Both the position numbers and the translations under genes were made by a program. From Pseudomonadota bacterium (GTDB lineage: Bacteria; Pseudomonadota; Gammaproteobacteria; Acidiferrobacterales; UBA6901), in contig JAJYEE010000001.1 of NCBI GenBank assembly GCA_021790335.1, forward strand, positions 93,873 through 157,872: a stretch of 64,000 nt of DNA. The letters are read 5' to 3'. How positions within the stretch are numbered: the first letter of the stretch is position 1; every line of letters starts with the position of its first letter. Positions 9,411 through 32,879 of this stretch are shown piece after piece. The notes beneath the pieces were generated by a model. It was not told where the DNA came from. It was given only the letters and a program-made list of their open reading frames with translations, and ran no database searches.

Positions 9411-9450
9411 CAACTCCTGTACTTGATCGGTATCTGGAGTGCTTGCCGCT

Positions 9451-9466
9451 TGGCATGCCTTTTGCT
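9451..9466 (+). promoter_or_regulatory. sigma-54 promoter of fliK
   Basis: The sequence TGGCAT-GCCTT-TTGCT keeps the GG-N10-GC core and differs from the TGGCAC-N5-TTGCW consensus at one position. Transcription should start near 9478, giving a leader of about 33 bases before the fliK ATG. This start lies downstream of the longest open frame (from 9439), which supports ATG 9511 as the true start. Confidence 0.87.
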
Positions 9467-9510
9467 GTTCTGTGATTCATCATATTAGGCGCCGATCCGA
9501 CAGGAGTGCC

Positions 9511-10812
9511 ATGCCGCAGCCAAGCTTTCTTCCACCGTCACGGCCTGATCTCAGTCCACCCGTTCCTGTCGCGCCGCAGCCGGCTTCAGAGGGCGCGGGC
9601 GATGCTAAAGACTCGTTTCCCGCGGTCCTGGCAGCGCACGGTGCTACGAGCCGGGATACGGTGGCTGGCAACGGCCCGGGATCCCCTGCGCGTGACGATG
9701 CAAATTCTAAGCCTGCCGCCAAGGCGGTGGGTCCGGAACAATCGGTCCCAAAGGACGGCAATTCGAAAATGGATGCCAAGGCGGCAAAGGACGGCAAAAC
9801 GGCAGGCAAGGCGGCAATAGACGGCAAGACTTTGCCGCATGCGACGGTGCCAGATGGAGCCGCAGTCAAGGCAGCCGCGCCGCCGGCGGGAACCGTAATC
9901 ATGACGGCCCCACCGCCAGGTGGGGCTGCAGTCAAGGCAGCCGCGCCGCTGTTCCAGCGGCAGCCGCCCGATCCAGTAAAGCTTTCGGTTGCTCGGCAGA
10001 ATATGCCGCCAGGTCCCGTGGCGGCAACGATCGTTGGGACCGGGGCGGTTAGAGCTCAGATTGAGCCCGACAAGAAGTCTTCTGGCGCGGGCTCCATCCG
10101 GATTGCCAAGCCCGGACCCAAAGTCGTTTCTCTTCCGGATCCGATTACAGCAAGCACCGGATCCGCCGTGAGCGACCAGACCAATATGGCGGTGAACTCC
10201 TCGCTGAAAGACTTGGTGGGCAAATCCGGTGTTTCCAGGGAGCCGCCGGCAAAGGAGATTTCGCCGAACCCGTCGCTATCGACCACCCACCTCGGGACAG
10301 AGTTAGCAGTTGCAAGCGACCTGACCCGTCCTGCTTTCGCCGTTCTCGCTTCCGGTTCCCCGGCTGCGGCGCCGGCATCCGCGAATCCGAGTGCGATGCT
10401 TCAGGTCAATCCGTCCATCAACCAGGCCGGCTGGGATCAGGCACTTGGAAACAGCATGATTTGGGTGGTTGGCCGCCAGATCCAGACCGCACAACTGCAA
10501 TTAAACCCCCCGCACCTCGGGCCAATCGAGGTGCGCGTTGCGATTCGCAATGACCAGACGACCCTCACTTTTGTCTCGGCGCATTCCCAGGTCCGCGATG
10601 CCCTGCAGGCAGCGATTCCCGGCCTGCGCGAAATGTTCTCGAACAACGGCCTCAATCTGGTCAATGTGGATATCTCGCAGCATTCCTTTTCCAGGGATTC
10701 CCGGCAATCAGACTATCCTTTCCCGCGCCGCGACGGGGAAAATCTGCCCGAGGACGACGTCGCCATGGCACCGGCGGCGGCACATGTCGGATTGATCGAT
10801 TTCTACGCCTGA
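9511..10812 (+). CDS. fliK: Flagellar hook-length control protein FliK
   Basis: The 433-residue product has a disordered N-terminal two thirds rich in Ala, Pro, Lys and Gly. This part includes DGK/DGN-containing repeats (about residues 85-110) and a 66-bp-spaced duplicate of the segment encoding AVKAAAP (DNA at 9862 and 9928). The C-terminal Flg_hook domain contains the FliK signature TAQLQLNPPHLGPIEVRVAI. FliK is exported as a ruler and then contacts FlhB to switch export from rod/hook to filament substrates. The start ATG 9511 has CAGGAG seven bases upstream and lies behind the sigma-54 promoter at 9451. A second FliK-like gene lies at 31581-32879. Confidence 0.92.
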   Translation: MPQPSFLPPSRPDLSPPVPVAPQPASEGAGDAKDSFPAVLAAHGATSRDTVAGNGPGSPARDDANSKPAAKAVGPEQSVPKDGNSKMDAKAAKDGKTAGKAAIDGKTLPHATVPDGAAVKAAAPPAGTVIMTAPPPGGAAVKAAAPLFQRQPPDPVKLSVARQNMPPGPVAATIVGTGAVRAQIEPDKKSSGAGSIRIAKPGPKVVSLPDPITASTGSAVSDQTNMAVNSSLKDLVGKSGVSREPPAKEISPNPSLSTTHLGTELAVASDLTRPAFAVLASGSPAAAPASANPSAMLQVNPSINQAGWDQALGNSMIWVVGRQIQTAQLQLNPPHLGPIEVRVAIRNDQTTLTFVSAHSQVRDALQAAIPGLREMFSNNGLNLVNVDISQHSFSRDSRQSDYPFPRRDGENLPEDDVAMAPAAAHVGLIDFYA

Positions 10813-14550: not shown

Positions 14551-15342
14551 ATGAATTTCACCAGCGCCGAAATCGCGTCTTGGATAGGATCCTACATGTG
14601 GCCGTTGTTCCGCATCGGCGCCTTTGTTGGTGCCGCGCCGATAGTGGGCAGTGCCGTGGTTCCCATGCGCATACGTCTGGGGCTGGCGCTACTGGTAACC
14701 CTGGTGGTTGCCCCACTGCTGCCGGCCGCGCCCGCAGTCGAACCCTTGGGCGTGGATGCACTATTCATCACGTTGCAGCAGCTGATTATTGGTGTCGCAA
14801 TGGGCTTCATCCTGCGCCTGATGTTCAACGCGCTGGAGCTTGCCGGACAGATGATCGGGCAGCTCATGGGGCTCGGCTTCGCCGCGATGATAGACCCTAA
14901 CAGCGGCGTGCAGGTGCCGGTGCTGAGTCAGTTCTACGTGGTCATGACAACGCTGCTGTTCCTAGCGTTCAACGGACACCTGATCATGATTGAAATGTTA
15001 GTGGACAGTTTCCGTGCGCTACCTGTATCGACACACGGCTTCGGGCCCGATGCCGTGCATGCGGTGGTTGAGTGGGGGGGGCAGATGTTCGCAGGGGCGG
15101 TCATGGTGGCCCTGCCGGCAGTTGCGGCGCTGCTGTTGGTCAATATCGCATTCGGTGTCATGACGCGCGCTGCGCCGCAGCTCAATGTTTTTGCGGTCGG
15201 TTTTCCGGTCACGTTGTTGCTAGGGTTGGTAGTGCTTGTGATGTCGATGCCGGAGCTGCCATCGCAGTTTGTACGCCTGTCGGATGCGGCTTTTGGTCTG
15301 ATGGGTAAGCTGGCTGGGGGAGGGGCAATCCATGGAATCTGA
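14551..15342 (+). CDS. fliR: Flagellar type III export gate protein FliR
   Basis: The 263-residue, very hydrophobic protein has six predicted membrane segments and FliR patterns (MNFTSAEIASWIGSYMWPLF at the start, RAAPQLNVFAVGFPVTLLLG near 210). ATG 14551 follows GGAG by about nine bases and gives the usual N terminus. A GTG at 14524, overlapping fliQ, would add nine residues. The end overlaps flhB by 11 bases. Confidence 0.95.
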   Translation: MNFTSAEIASWIGSYMWPLFRIGAFVGAAPIVGSAVVPMRIRLGLALLVTLVVAPLLPAAPAVEPLGVDALFITLQQLIIGVAMGFILRLMFNALELAGQMIGQLMGLGFAAMIDPNSGVQVPVLSQFYVVMTTLLFLAFNGHLIMIEMLVDSFRALPVSTHGFGPDAVHAVVEWGGQMFAGAVMVALPAVAALLLVNIAFGVMTRAAPQLNVFAVGFPVTLLLGLVVLVMSMPELPSQFVRLSDAAFGLMGKLAGGGAIHGI

Positions 15343-16456
15343 CCGCGGTCAGGAACGCACTGAAAGCGCCACCCCAAAGCGCCTGCGCGAGGCACGCGAA
15401 AAGGGCCAAATCGCACGCTCTCGCGAGCTCAACACCATGGTGTTGGTGCTGGCAACCGCCGGAGGGATGCTGTTCCTGGGCACCGGCCTGCTACACGGAC
15501 TCGGCGATCTCATGCGCGAATCGCTGCATCTGACCCGCAGCGCAGCTTTCGATGCCGGCGCCGGTCCTCACGCTTTTATGCATGCAGTAGTGGAAGTGCT
15601 CGTCAGATTCGCCCCCTTGGGGCTCATCATGTTGTTTGCGGCCCTTCTTGCGCCGCTTGCGCTGGGCGGCTGGTTGTTCAGCCCCGAGGCGCTGGGGTTC
15701 AAGTGGGACAGGCTCGATCCGGTCCGGGGATTCGGCCGCCTGCTCTCCGTGCGAAGCCTGATGGAGCTGCTTAAATCCCTGGCCAAGTTCGTGCTGCTGG
15801 TGGCTATCGCCAGTGCGCTGTTATGGCGCAAGTCCGGAACGATTCTCGGTCTGGGAACCGAGCCACTGGGCGTGGCGCTGCCGCATCTTGCGTATATGCT
15901 GGGCTGGTCGCTTGTCACCCTGTGCCTGGGCCTGGTTGTGATAGCCGCTGTCGACGTGCCATATCAGCTCTGGGACCATGCGCGCGATATGAAGATGACA
16001 CGCCAGGAAGTGCGCGACGAATTCAAGGAAACCGACGGCAGGCCTGAGGTGAAGGCGCAGATCCGGCGCATGCAGCGCGAGATGTCAAAGCGCCGCATGA
16101 TGGCCGAGGTTCCGAAGGCGGACGTCATCGTCACCAACCCGACGCATTATGCGGTCGCATTGCGCTACGATCAGTCGCGTATGCGTGCGCCGCGGGTCGT
16201 GGCCAAGGGCGGGGACCTGATTGCCGAGCAGATCCGCAAGATCGGCGCAGAGCATGGAGTGGCAATACTCAGCGCTCCGCCTCTGGCGCGTGCCCTGTAT
16301 TTCAGCACAGAGCTCGGTCGCGAAATACCGGCAGGACTGTATTTGGCAGTAGCCAAGGTGCTTGCCTACGTCTATCAGCTGCGCAGCCGCGGTGCCGAAC
16401 CAGGCTCTGAACCGATTCCGGATCTGGAAATTCCTGACGACCTGAGGCACGACTGA
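15332..16456 (+). CDS. flhB: Flagellar export switch protein FlhB
   Basis: The 374-residue product has an N-terminal ERTESATPKRLREAREKGQ motif, four membrane helices (about 30-210), and a cytoplasmic domain with the autocleavage site NPTH in VIVTNPTHYAVALRYD (about residue 268). Cleavage after Asn, promoted by FliK, changes substrate specificity from hook to filament. A separate copy of only the C-terminal part of this family lies at 31258-31584. FlhA follows after 4 bp. Confidence 0.97.
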   Translation: MESDRGQERTESATPKRLREAREKGQIARSRELNTMVLVLATAGGMLFLGTGLLHGLGDLMRESLHLTRSAAFDAGAGPHAFMHAVVEVLVRFAPLGLIMLFAALLAPLALGGWLFSPEALGFKWDRLDPVRGFGRLLSVRSLMELLKSLAKFVLLVAIASALLWRKSGTILGLGTEPLGVALPHLAYMLGWSLVTLCLGLVVIAAVDVPYQLWDHARDMKMTRQEVRDEFKETDGRPEVKAQIRRMQREMSKRRMMAEVPKADVIVTNPTHYAVALRYDQSRMRAPRVVAKGGDLIAEQIRKIGAEHGVAILSAPPLARALYFSTELGREIPAGLYLAVAKVLAYVYQLRSRGAEPGSEPIPDLEIPDDLRHD

Positions 16457-29481: not shown

Positions 29482-29667
29482 ATGCCGGATCTCGGTGACT
29501 TACAGCCTCCATCTCCAGCGAGACCCGCGCGCCCCTTTGACCCCAAGGACCAGCAGCGCCGCCAGCCGCGCCCTCCACCGCAGGATAAACCTGCGCGGGC
29601 ACCGAATGACGGAGGCGGATCTTCCCGCGATCATATCGACGAGTATGCAGACCCGAGGCAGTTCTGA
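29482..29667 (+). CDS. Small proline-rich protein between cheW and the DUF2802 gene
   Basis: This is a 61-residue open frame with a strong GGAGGG ribosome site six bases before ATG 29482. Its stop overlaps the next start (TGATG). It is hydrophilic and disordered: Pro, Arg, Gln and Asp dominate (ARPFDPKDQQRRQPRPPPQD) and the tail reads HIDEYADPRQF. No membrane or enzymatic motif is present. Coupling on both sides suggests a real gene co-expressed with cheW; its function is unknown. Confidence 0.7.
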   Translation: MPDLGDLQPPSPARPARPFDPKDQQRRQPRPPPQDKPARAPNDGGGSSRDHIDEYADPRQF

Positions 29668-30125
29668 TGAAGACTGAACTGATGATGGTTCTAGGTGTTG
29701 CTGCCCTGGTTGTAGGTGCGGTCCTGCAGATGGTGCTTGCGGCCATGGGTCAGCGCGCCCAGCGCCGTATGTATGCGCATCTGGATGCAACGCAGGGATT
29801 GCAAGCAGATCTGGCAGCGATCCGTGCCGAGGCGGCAGGGTTGGCGAAACGGCTGGGGCAGGTAGAGCGCGAGCTCACTCGCGTTTCCGAGTCCGCCGAG
29901 AAGCCCGGTCGCCAGGAGATCTACGATCACTCCTACGCGGTTGCGGCAAGATTGGTGCGCGAAGGCGCAGACGCCGCCGAACTGGTCGCCAGCTGTGGAC
30001 TTGTCCGGGGCGAAGCCGAGCTGATGATGCGGCTCTATGGTACCGGTGTTGCCGCGAGGGACGTCCCGAAGGCGGGATCTATCGGAAAGCCGAGCGCGCC
30101 GCGTCCCGCCCGCGCCGCCGGTTAG
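29667..30125 (+). CDS. DUF2802-type membrane-anchored protein of the chemotaxis cluster
   Basis: The 152-residue product has an N-terminal membrane helix (about 5-28, MVLGVAALVVGAVLQMVLAA), a coiled coil (about 45-85, IRAEAAGLAKRLGQVERELT), and a short C-terminal helical motif (YAVAARLVREGADAAELVAS, CGLVRGEAELMMRLYG) resembling a small DNA-binding-like helix pair. DUF2802 proteins occur after cheW in Pseudomonas (PA1465-like). Function is unknown. A 157-bp spacer without a recognised gene follows. Confidence 0.75.
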   Translation: MKTELMMVLGVAALVVGAVLQMVLAAMGQRAQRRMYAHLDATQGLQADLAAIRAEAAGLAKRLGQVERELTRVSESAEKPGRQEIYDHSYAVAARLVREGADAAELVASCGLVRGEAELMMRLYGTGVAARDVPKAGSIGKPSAPRPARAAG

Positions 30126-31257: not shown

Positions 31258-31584
31258 TCAAGCTTCGCGGGGCTGGGCGTCAGCGCTCTTGCCGCTGAGT
31301 CGGTAGGCGAAAGCGATGACTTCCGCTACCGCCACATACAGGCTCGCGGGAATCTCGTCGCCCAGGTCAATCCTTGACAGCAACTGCAGAAGATCGGCAT
31401 CTTCGCGCAACGGGATGCCATGTTCGCGTGCGATCGCCAAAATTCGTTCCGCCACCTCCCCTTCGCCCTTGGCTGTGACACGCGGCGCACCTTTACCATC
31501 GTAGCGCAGTGCTACGGCGCTGGTGCGAGAATGGGCAGATTCCGGCGTGATGGGATCGCCATCGTGAGGGCCGTCGCTGCTCAT
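31258..31584 (-). CDS. flhX: FlhB C-terminal domain protein (FlhX/EscU-like)
   Basis: The 108-residue product covers only the cytoplasmic C-terminal part of FlhB: SAVALRYDGKGAPRVTAKGE, then REHGIPLREDADLLQLLSRI and IPASLYVAVAEVIAFAYRLS. It aligns with the portion of the local FlhB that follows the NPTH cleavage site. NPTH itself is absent (RTS precedes AVALRYD), as are the membrane helices. Stand-alone FlhX proteins are known to replace or modulate the cleaved FlhB domain in some bacteria. ATG 31584 overlaps the stop of the FliK-like gene (ATGA). An upstream in-frame start at 31653 is unlikely. Confidence 0.85.
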   Translation of the reverse strand: MSSDGPHDGDPITPESAHSRTSAVALRYDGKGAPRVTAKGEGEVAERILAIAREHGIPLREDADLLQLLSRIDLGDEIPASLYVAVAEVIAFAYRLSGKSADAQPREA

Positions 31585-32879
31585 GCCCGGGTATCCAGAA
31601 GTTTTTCGGGCATCCGGACGTGCGCCGATGCCGGCGCCTTCCCGCAATAACAACCCATGGCACCCACGGCCAGACCGGCTTGCGTCATGCCGGCGCGGAG
31701 CTCTTCAAGATGTATCGCAAACAGAGCGGCCGTGTCCGGCCGTTCAGCCCAGACGGTCGCCGAGATCTGGCCACCGTGGAGGGTCAGGCGCACATGTACC
31801 GGACCGAGGTTGCTTGGCTCAAGCCCAAGGCTCACCGACCACGATCGGAGTTCCTGCGAGTGGCCGCGCCGATCGTCGGCTTCGACTTGCAGACGCAGGA
31901 CGTCGACCCGGTCTTCGCGGCGAACTGGCAGGTCGATCACCCACATTGGTGTGCCGCCATGTTCAGCCGGTAGCGACGACAGCTGATTCATCTGCAGGCG
32001 CGCAAGCGCGGCTTCCACCTGATGAACCGGTGCCTTTCCTGTTAGGTCAGGCGGAAGCTGTAGCGGGGGCGATGCGGATACGGAATTCTGGCCTGGAGGT
32101 TTGGTCGTAATGGAACTCTGGACCAGAAGTGATGTGTTGCTGACCGAAGGCAATGAATTCTGGACCAAGGGGGCTGCCTGCATGGAACCCCGAGCCGGAA
32201 CTGCATCGCCACGAGCTGGCGGGAGGGCACTGCCGCCAAATTCGGACCCGGCGGCAGCGGGATCCGTGGTTGATTCACGCAACGCACTGGTCAGGCGCAG
32301 CAGCCCGGCCTTGAAGTCGGCCACAGAAATGCCGGCCGCACTCCCGCTTTCGTTGGCGGCGGCTAAAAGGCGCGACTCGAGAAACAAGCCGGAGTTGAGT
32401 ACCGCGGTCTTGAGTCCGGCGGGGCGCGCGACCTCCTGGACATCCGGGAGGCTGGTGAGAATCTGTTCAGCGATCCGGAAGACGACCTGCGCCGGCGTGG
32501 CGGTCGATTCTGCCGTGTCGTTGGCAAGTGCCGCGACCACGTCCAACAACGGCTGTAGCGGCTCCTGGAGGGGGAGCACGACCCGCCATGCCTGAGTTTG
32601 CGGATCCTGCTCCGCCGTCGATGGCGCTACCGCGAGCGTTGGTTGTTCTCCAACGCTTACCACCCGCAATGTGAGGGTCGCACCCGGCTTGACGGTCAGC
32701 GAGGTCTGCGCCGTAAAAAGCTGTCCGTTGATGCGCATCGAAACCTGTCCAGAGCCGAGGGCTTCCGCCACGGTGGCAGACAGAATCTCACCTACCTGCC
32801 AGGTGCTTGTCTGTGCCGCGAGCAGTCCCGAAGGGCCAGTCGGCCGGATGGTCAGGTTGTCGCTGATCTGCATAGGCAT
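31581..32879 (-). CDS. Second FliK-like hook-length control domain protein
   Basis: The 432-residue product begins MPMQISDNLTIRPTGPSGLL, with long Ala/Pro/Ser-rich middle regions. The C-terminal Flg_hook-like domain contains SLGLEPSNLGPVHVRLTLHG (compare LNPPHLGPIEVRVAIR in the fliK at 9511) and TAALFAIHLEELRAGMTQAG. It is more distant from canonical FliK and has a Cys pair (GCYCG) near its end. It is translationally coupled to the FlhX gene, so the two probably work together. It is probably transcribed from the 210-bp spacer 32880-33089, divergent from miaB. Confidence 0.8.
   Translation of the reverse strand: MPMQISDNLTIRPTGPSGLLAAQTSTWQVGEILSATVAEALGSGQVSMRINGQLFTAQTSLTVKPGATLTLRVVSVGEQPTLAVAPSTAEQDPQTQAWRVVLPLQEPLQPLLDVVAALANDTAESTATPAQVVFRIAEQILTSLPDVQEVARPAGLKTAVLNSGLFLESRLLAAANESGSAAGISVADFKAGLLRLTSALRESTTDPAAAGSEFGGSALPPARGDAVPARGSMQAAPLVQNSLPSVSNTSLLVQSSITTKPPGQNSVSASPPLQLPPDLTGKAPVHQVEAALARLQMNQLSSLPAEHGGTPMWVIDLPVRREDRVDVLRLQVEADDRRGHSQELRSWSVSLGLEPSNLGPVHVRLTLHGGQISATVWAERPDTAALFAIHLEELRAGMTQAGLAVGAMGCYCGKAPASAHVRMPEKLLDTRA

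Follow-up and report, generated by a model that had tools for sequence, protein, structure and literature searches.

A FliK-like protein encoded together with a stand-alone FlhB C-terminal domain: a candidate second module of the flagellar export gate

Why should a genome that encodes a complete FliK and a complete FlhB also encode, in two overlapping genes, a further FliK-type switch domain and a further FlhB C-terminal domain? This question is raised by a locus in the window, the whole stretch of 64,000 nucleotides analysed here (Table 1). A sequence-only reading had described an ATGA-coupled pair of ORFs on the minus strand, with a complete FliK and a complete FlhB elsewhere in the window. 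The coordinates and the overlap were confirmed, as were the two complete genes, and the Flg_hook and FlhB C-terminal matches were found by Pfam. In this paper the first protein of the pair is called FliK2, which is our own label, and the second FlhX, a name already in print.

Table 1. Positions of the paired genes, their protein regions and the canonical genes in the window
Feature	Residues	Position	Strand	Description and basis
fliK2		31581..32879	-	432-aa FliK-like protein; Flg_hook PF02120 E = 5.4e-17; AlphaFold2 mean pLDDT 80.9
flhX		31258..31584	-	108-aa stand-alone FlhB C-terminal cytoplasmic domain; Pfam and structure comparison
fliK2 stop/flhX start overlap		31581..31584	-	ATGA; sequence reading
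FliK2 N-terminal beta-barrel, S1/OB-fold-like	15-88	32616..32837	-	AlphaFold2; VIA-align Z 6.7 to S1 domain 4nni
FliK2 helical region	93-211	32247..32603	-	Conserved SGLFLE motif; AlphaFold2
FliK2 linker	212-280	32040..32246	-	Mostly low-confidence; pLDDT <50 at 216-260 and 262-271
FliK2 Flg_hook (switch) domain	345-410	31650..31847	-	Pfam, AlphaFold2, structure matches
FliK2 C-terminal end		31584..31601	-	LLDTRA; penultimate Arg where FliK has Tyr/Phe
FlhX FlhB-CC domain	23-92	31309..31518	-	Substrate pocket retained; no NPTH; shorter by one residue near Tyr323
Canonical fliK		9439..10812	+	Ends LIDFYA; PF02120 77.7 bits
Canonical full-length flhB		15332..16456	+	With NPTH; PF01312 model positions 1-335

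The locus and its two products

The TGA stop codon of fliK2 shares bases with the ATG of flhX. The true start of fliK2 may be at 32873, the second Met, judging from three relatives (L006, L008 and L009) that start there (MQI...). The host genome (109 contigs) contains exactly two matches each to PF02120 and PF01312 at E ≤ 0.001. The interval from the flagellar cluster to the pair is occupied by genes with ParA-like ATPase, CheW, CheW, DUF2802 and GGDEF domains; on the far side lies a miaB-like gene with UPF0004, radical SAM and TRAM domains. The DUF2802 gene (29667-30125) follows the cheW genes; genes that look similar by eye lie close to the pair in L110 and L131 and close to flhX in L182 and L184. 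A sigma-70 scan found no site, and the terminator-like sites are consensus matches only.

The Flg_hook match of FliK2 (61.8 bits) lies above the PF02120 cut-off of 29.8. In the AlphaFold2 model, the wider switch region spans residues 282-412 and is followed by a loose tail. The switch domain resembles those of FliK-C (2rrl; sequence profile E = 2.2e-6, Z 5.0) and PscP (5cuk; Z 6.0). A Foldseek search with the model gave nothing at E ≤ 0.001, the top two hits being the switch domains of PscP and FliK (E 0.02 and 0.03). FliK2 and FliK of the window share 26% identity over 53 aa (E = 0.006). The S1/OB likeness of the N-terminal barrel in the model is middling and may reflect a common arrangement only; no function is read from it. 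The pair had been said to duplicate exactly the two interacting parts of the hook-length switch. Both domains are present; however, FliK2 holds more than the Flg_hook domain, and a further folded region is predicted in the first half of the protein.

The match of FlhX to Bac_export_2 (PF01312, E = 3.8e-19) is confined to model positions 262-334 of 335. This means that the membrane part and the NPTH site are absent from FlhX, and the absence of NPTH agrees with the earlier description. FlhX is thus an FlhB C-terminal domain alone, accompanied by a full FlhB elsewhere, and not a full-length FlhB/SctU protein, which would have the membrane domain and the NPTH site. Its best NCBIfam match is TIGR00789 (flhB_rel), but the score of 88.6 bits is below the cut-off of 117.35, outside the limits of that family. 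FlhX and FlhB of the window are 47% identical over 83 aa. The predicted model of FlhX (mean pLDDT 75.6) superimposes on the solved Salmonella FlhB-C (3b0z_B) with an rmsd of 1.5 over 81 columns, and a second comparison with solved FlhB-C gave a Z of 13.1.

Co-occurrence of FliK2 and FlhX

A sample of 140 gammaproteobacterial genomes, drawn evenly, was searched; PF01312 was matched in 74 genomes and PF02120 in 73. Whole-length FlhB was found in 72 genomes and stand-alone FlhX in 51. In all 51, FlhX lay directly behind a Flg_hook gene on the same strand, with 19-473 bases between the domain matches. FlhX was carried by 49 of the 72 FlhB genomes, 48 of which had at least two Flg_hook matches and one of which had a single match; two Flg_hook genes were found in none of the 23 FlhB genomes without FlhX. 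The association of FlhX with a second Flg_hook gene (Fisher p = 6e-18) is overstated by this value, since neighbouring genes are not independent. The pair is missing from 23 of the 72 FlhB-bearing genomes and is therefore dispensable for the flagellum in general. Where pair and flhB were on one contig, the pair lay within 18.1 kb of flhB and on the opposite strand in 24 of 26 genomes. In the order to which the window belongs (41 genomes), FlhB occurred in six, and all six had FlhX behind a Flg_hook gene. The ATGA overlap is present in 65 of 80 distinct fliK2-flhX pairs. Judged by sequence and gene order, which are conserved across families, the pair is far beyond chance.

Several loci of the class deserve separate mention. 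One genome (G003) carries two different fliK2-flhX pairs (L007 and L008). In G036, the sole Flg_hook gene has a highly divergent FlhX as its partner (L011, 2270-3792; 27.3 bits), and this locus adjoins flhA- and flgF-like genes. FlhX was found without a whole-length FlhB match in G071 and G084. The assembly of G084 is fragmented, and its pair is present with no FlhB match. In the one-contig genome G071, both fliK2 and flhX are broken and have a common inserted repeated peptide stretch (L110, 2841-4854); this is probably decay after loss of flagella. The best FlhX relatives include two MAG records titled Klebsiella pneumoniae (L061 and L083), labels which look doubtful; the rest of the list is rich in methanotrophs, sulphur bacteria and other gammaproteobacteria.

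The two genes are not always adjacent. Among 113 candidate loci, a Flg_hook-type ORF was directly in front of flhX in 83 and absent there in 30. One of the latter (L121) turned out to be a full FlhB and was rejected, which leaves 29 lone loci, many of them from Methylobacter, Methylomonas and relatives. In seven of eight lone loci inspected, flhX neighbours a gene that we take to be queF or psd. Of the 29 genomes, 23 were searched: at least two Flg_hook matches were found in 22 (G186 has one), and the FlhB match was whole-length in 19 and partial or absent in four. It should be mentioned that these genomes are close kin, so that 22 of 23 does not represent 22 independent events. Twenty of the 22 second Flg_hook proteins were read, and all 20 had a FliK2-like end with no penultimate Tyr, Phe or Trp; an SGLFLE-type motif was seen in 16 of these 20. 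In G179, the unlinked fliK2 and flhX are 2.5 kb apart on one contig. In a Bathymodiolus endosymbiont (G181, L020), the FlhB match is partial with an internal stop, and the ORFs of FlhX and the second Flg_hook protein are open.

Outside Gammaproteobacteria, 50 genomes that match PF01312 were chosen from the remaining classes of the phylum. FlhX was found in 33 of them, as 39 copies. A Flg_hook match lay directly upstream of 23 copies and not of the other 16, which means that FlhX may work without FliK2. Twelve of the 16 were read: a short diverged FliK2-like gene precedes flhX in four, and none was seen in the adjoining stretch in eight. The four (L177, L182, L184 and L186) have an ORF of 246-283 codons before flhX, by eye a short diverged FliK2 missed by the Flg_hook model, and three of them precede what appear from sequence reading to be flgF-like genes. 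In three further loci of the same family (L175, L176 and L185), no FliK2-like ORF of at least 150 codons was found before flhX. In L178, L180 and L181, flhX precedes a fliP-like gene with no FliK2 seen on sequence reading, which is a different setting of FlhX. The contig of L183 has a second Flg_hook match at a distance of 10 kb from flhX, and the setting in L179 is ambiguous. The FliK2-FlhX link is thus strong yet not universal. The co-occurrence expected from the sequence-only reading holds inside Gammaproteobacteria, both when the genes are linked (51 of 51) and when they are apart (22 of 23); in the other classes, 16 of 39 copies had no Flg_hook match directly in front.

Plasmid records were also looked at. 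Seventy had a tblastn match, and four were inspected from the best 20 listed. The Pseudomonas record has the pair. In the Cupriavidus record, the matched stretch carries no annotation. The matches in Curtobacterium and Thermomicrobium were rejected as FlhX, because they are full-length FlhB genes.

Ancestry and residues changed in both partners

The C-terminal regions of 23 FliK2 and 20 FliK were split at one branch of the tree with a support of 100/100, and FliK2 was not grouped with canonical FliK. Similarly, 37 FlhX and 20 FlhB-CC were split at one fully supported branch. In both trees the bootstrap had not settled and some long rows were included; the FliK tree is without L092-L099. The pair is thus not a local copy of the FliK and FlhB genes found in the same genome, as the wording of the sequence-only reading might suggest, and a recent lineage-specific duplication was rejected because both trees separate the paralogues at one branch over many families. 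On these trees, FliK2 and FlhX are old paralogues. The distances of FlhX and FliK2 are correlated after correction for FlhB-N (partial r 0.39, p 0.008, n = 18). This is hardly above the value for FlhB-CC and FliK2 (0.34, p 0.01), and the mirror-tree comparison therefore gives no specific co-evolution; the correlation of FlhX with the C-terminal 130 residues of FliK2 was weaker (0.21, p 0.09).

The C-terminal tail distinguishes FliK2 from FliK. The penultimate residue was Tyr or Phe in all 60 FliK proteins read: 40 of 40 from FlhX-bearing genomes, 20 of these from the lone-FlhX set, and 20 of 20 read out of 22 FlhX-less genomes with a Flg_hook match. A penultimate Tyr, Phe or Trp was found in only one of 119 FliK2 proteins: one of 79 readable linked ones (the Trp of L011), none of 20 from other classes and none of the 20 unlinked. 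L064 is masked at the tail and stands outside this count. FliK2 of the window also lacks the aromatic residue. All 80 distinct FliK2 end in Ala, Val or Ile. This tail signature was found in the present analysis and has no published status as a criterion for FliK.

On the FlhX side, 109 sequences (106 distinct, 87 clusters at 90%) were aligned with 20 FlhB-CC. NPTH is present in 20 of 20 FlhB and in none of the 109 FlhX. The residues of the substrate pocket are kept in FlhX: Ala286 in 105 of 109, Pro287 and Ala341 in all 109, and Ile (92) or Leu (16) at the site of Leu344 in 108, with one other residue. The column of Tyr323 is a gap in all 109 FlhX and all 87 clusters, whereas the 20 FlhB have Tyr (17), Phe (2) or His (1). 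BLAST places this one-residue gap two positions away, and the safe wording is therefore that FlhX is one residue shorter around Tyr323. Within columns 321-325, Tyr, Phe or Trp occurs in 3 of 109 FlhX (L011, L071 and L095) against 19 of 20 FlhB. Residues 283-284 are both missing in 108 of 109 FlhX. In 20 pairs from other classes, the Tyr323 gap, Pro287, Ala341 and Leu or Ile at 344 were found in 20 of 20 and Ala286 in 15 of 20; the shortening at 283-284 is not general there.

Residues at sites linked to the switch have thus changed in FliK2 as well as in FlhX, and this is the strongest hint of a mutual fit. L011 is exceptional in both partners: its paired Flg_hook protein, the only one of G036, has Trp in the tail, and its FlhX has Tyr near the 323 site. 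L071 and L095 have Tyr next to this site, yet their FliK2 tails are without an aromatic residue.

Possible function of the pair

The sites concerned have been described in several papers. In Salmonella, the gate is kept in its early mode by FlhB-CC together with Fluke, and ejection of FlhB-CC by FliK has been proposed (PMC13344023); the term FlhX is absent from that paper. Switching is affected by the five C-terminal residues of FliK (PMC10965912), and FlhB Y323D suppresses loss of fliK, that is, it bypasses FliK (PMC3040844). Ala286, Pro287, Ala341 and Leu344 of FlhB form the pocket that binds early (rod/hook) export substrates (PMC9307174).

We propose that FliK2 and FlhX, inherited together, make up a second FliK/FlhB-C module that works at the flagellar export gate; the chances for and against this reading seem to us evenly balanced. 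The module would probably act as a cytosolic complex. FliK2 and FlhX would be made together through translational coupling, and FliK2 would bind FlhX via its switch domain and tail. FlhX would be a free version of the FlhB part that FliK is said to eject, retaining the pocket and differing at the 323 site. It might replace FlhB-CC on FlhB-CN at the export gate, or compete with it, and the swap would keep or restore early-type export in a form that ordinary FliK cannot eject. A dedicated specificity switch, as had been suggested at the outset, is a reasonable candidate function. The Fluke profile NF007987, searched to see if FlhX takes over in genomes lacking Fluke, matched none of the 140 class genomes and, among the controls, only E. 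coli; the sample thus has no bearing on this idea.

A more specific and rather doubtful form of this proposal is an orthogonal second lock and key. The ordinary lock would consist of two matched parts, the penultimate aromatic residue of FliK and FlhB Tyr323, of which FliK2 and FlhX have each lost one. FlhX swapped onto FlhB-CN could then not be ejected by FliK, and its lock would be opened only by FliK2.

The pair resembles several known systems. The FliK-FlhB hook-length switch uses the same two domains, but FlhX has neither the membrane part nor NPTH and is shorter by one residue near Tyr323, and FliK2 is without the penultimate aromatic residue and, by prediction, without the disordered ruler. 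A pair with the same order and 4-base overlap lies beside ccmA in Pseudomonas aeruginosa (NZ_CP133752), annotated as FliK and an EscU/YscU/HrcU family protein with no function given; identity to the window is 25-27% for FliK2 and 45-46% for FlhX. The available passages count FlhX among the flagellar components of Campylobacterota and Actinobacteria. In Nitratiruptor, a member of Campylobacterota, flhX and fliK are mentioned as one unit that lies away from the main flagellar cluster, as here; this fliK is not stated there to be a second copy (PMC9321776).

Helicobacter pylori HP1575 (flhB2) is a named homologue of the FlhB C-terminal domain, as is FlhX here, and Campylobacter jejuni Cj0848c is named flhX. 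The passages available on these two, likened here by name and description rather than sequence, make no mention of a FliK-like partner. HP1575 is said to act as a "spare part" for FlhB-CC (Wand 2006, title). In the same way, FlhX might be only a backup of FlhB-CC, with FliK2 a neighbour having a loosely related job. The retained substrate pocket and the eight of 12 lone outside-class copies read without an adjoining FliK2 agree with this reading. However, a plain backup should keep the 323 site, which is a gap in all FlhX of both sets, and co-retention with FliK2 inside the class is near-perfect even when the genes are unlinked. We consider this explanation unlikely.

Somewhat less probable is a soluble complex away from the gate, holding or sorting early substrates in the cytosol. 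FlhX has the substrate pocket without a membrane anchor, and the prediction for FliK2 is a mostly folded protein that includes an OB-like domain, which would suit such a role; against it, FlhX retains the fold of FlhB-C in solved structures.

We give still less credence to a second full hook-length ruler and switch, a role in line with the sequence-only reading, in which an exported FliK2 would measure another structure or a second hook state. FliK2 has the Flg_hook domain and a FliK-like C-terminal end, and its median length is similar (442 aa in 22 FliK2 chosen at at least 380 aa, 420 aa in 20 FliK). However, its N-terminal region is predicted to be folded in place of a disordered ruler, which argues against a role as a second hook ruler or exported ruler. 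In the same two sets, residues 16-215 are more alike between species than in FliK (mean pairwise identity 0.27 against 0.19), and the N-terminal half is richer in order-promoting residues (0.278 against 0.218). The last 130 residues, the switch region, are less conserved in FliK2 (0.28 against 0.34). The folding predicted by the model would be no proof against export.

A decaying relic without function, as the broken pair of G071 might suggest, is very improbable, since the pair is open and conserved in dozens of families and the only genome in which a broken pair was read has no FlhB, which is what would be expected if the pair is kept only with the flagellum.

FlhX and the flhX-fliK pairing are already in print, and the matched residue signature is new as far as searched. 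The literature search, with most subscription journals outside its coverage, found nothing on the function of the pair or the matched residue changes. Bacillus subtilis ylqG and ylqH are a similar pair, and no paper with both names was found in this search.

A natural free FlhB-CC made with its own FliK occurs in 49 of 72 FlhB-bearing genomes of the class, and the literature searched offers no worked-out role for it. The matched loss of the penultimate aromatic residue of FliK and of a residue around Tyr323 of FlhB points to two sites that could be exchanged. The pair copies parts of the two proteins that signal sufficient hook length, and this hints at a second, separate version of the switch.
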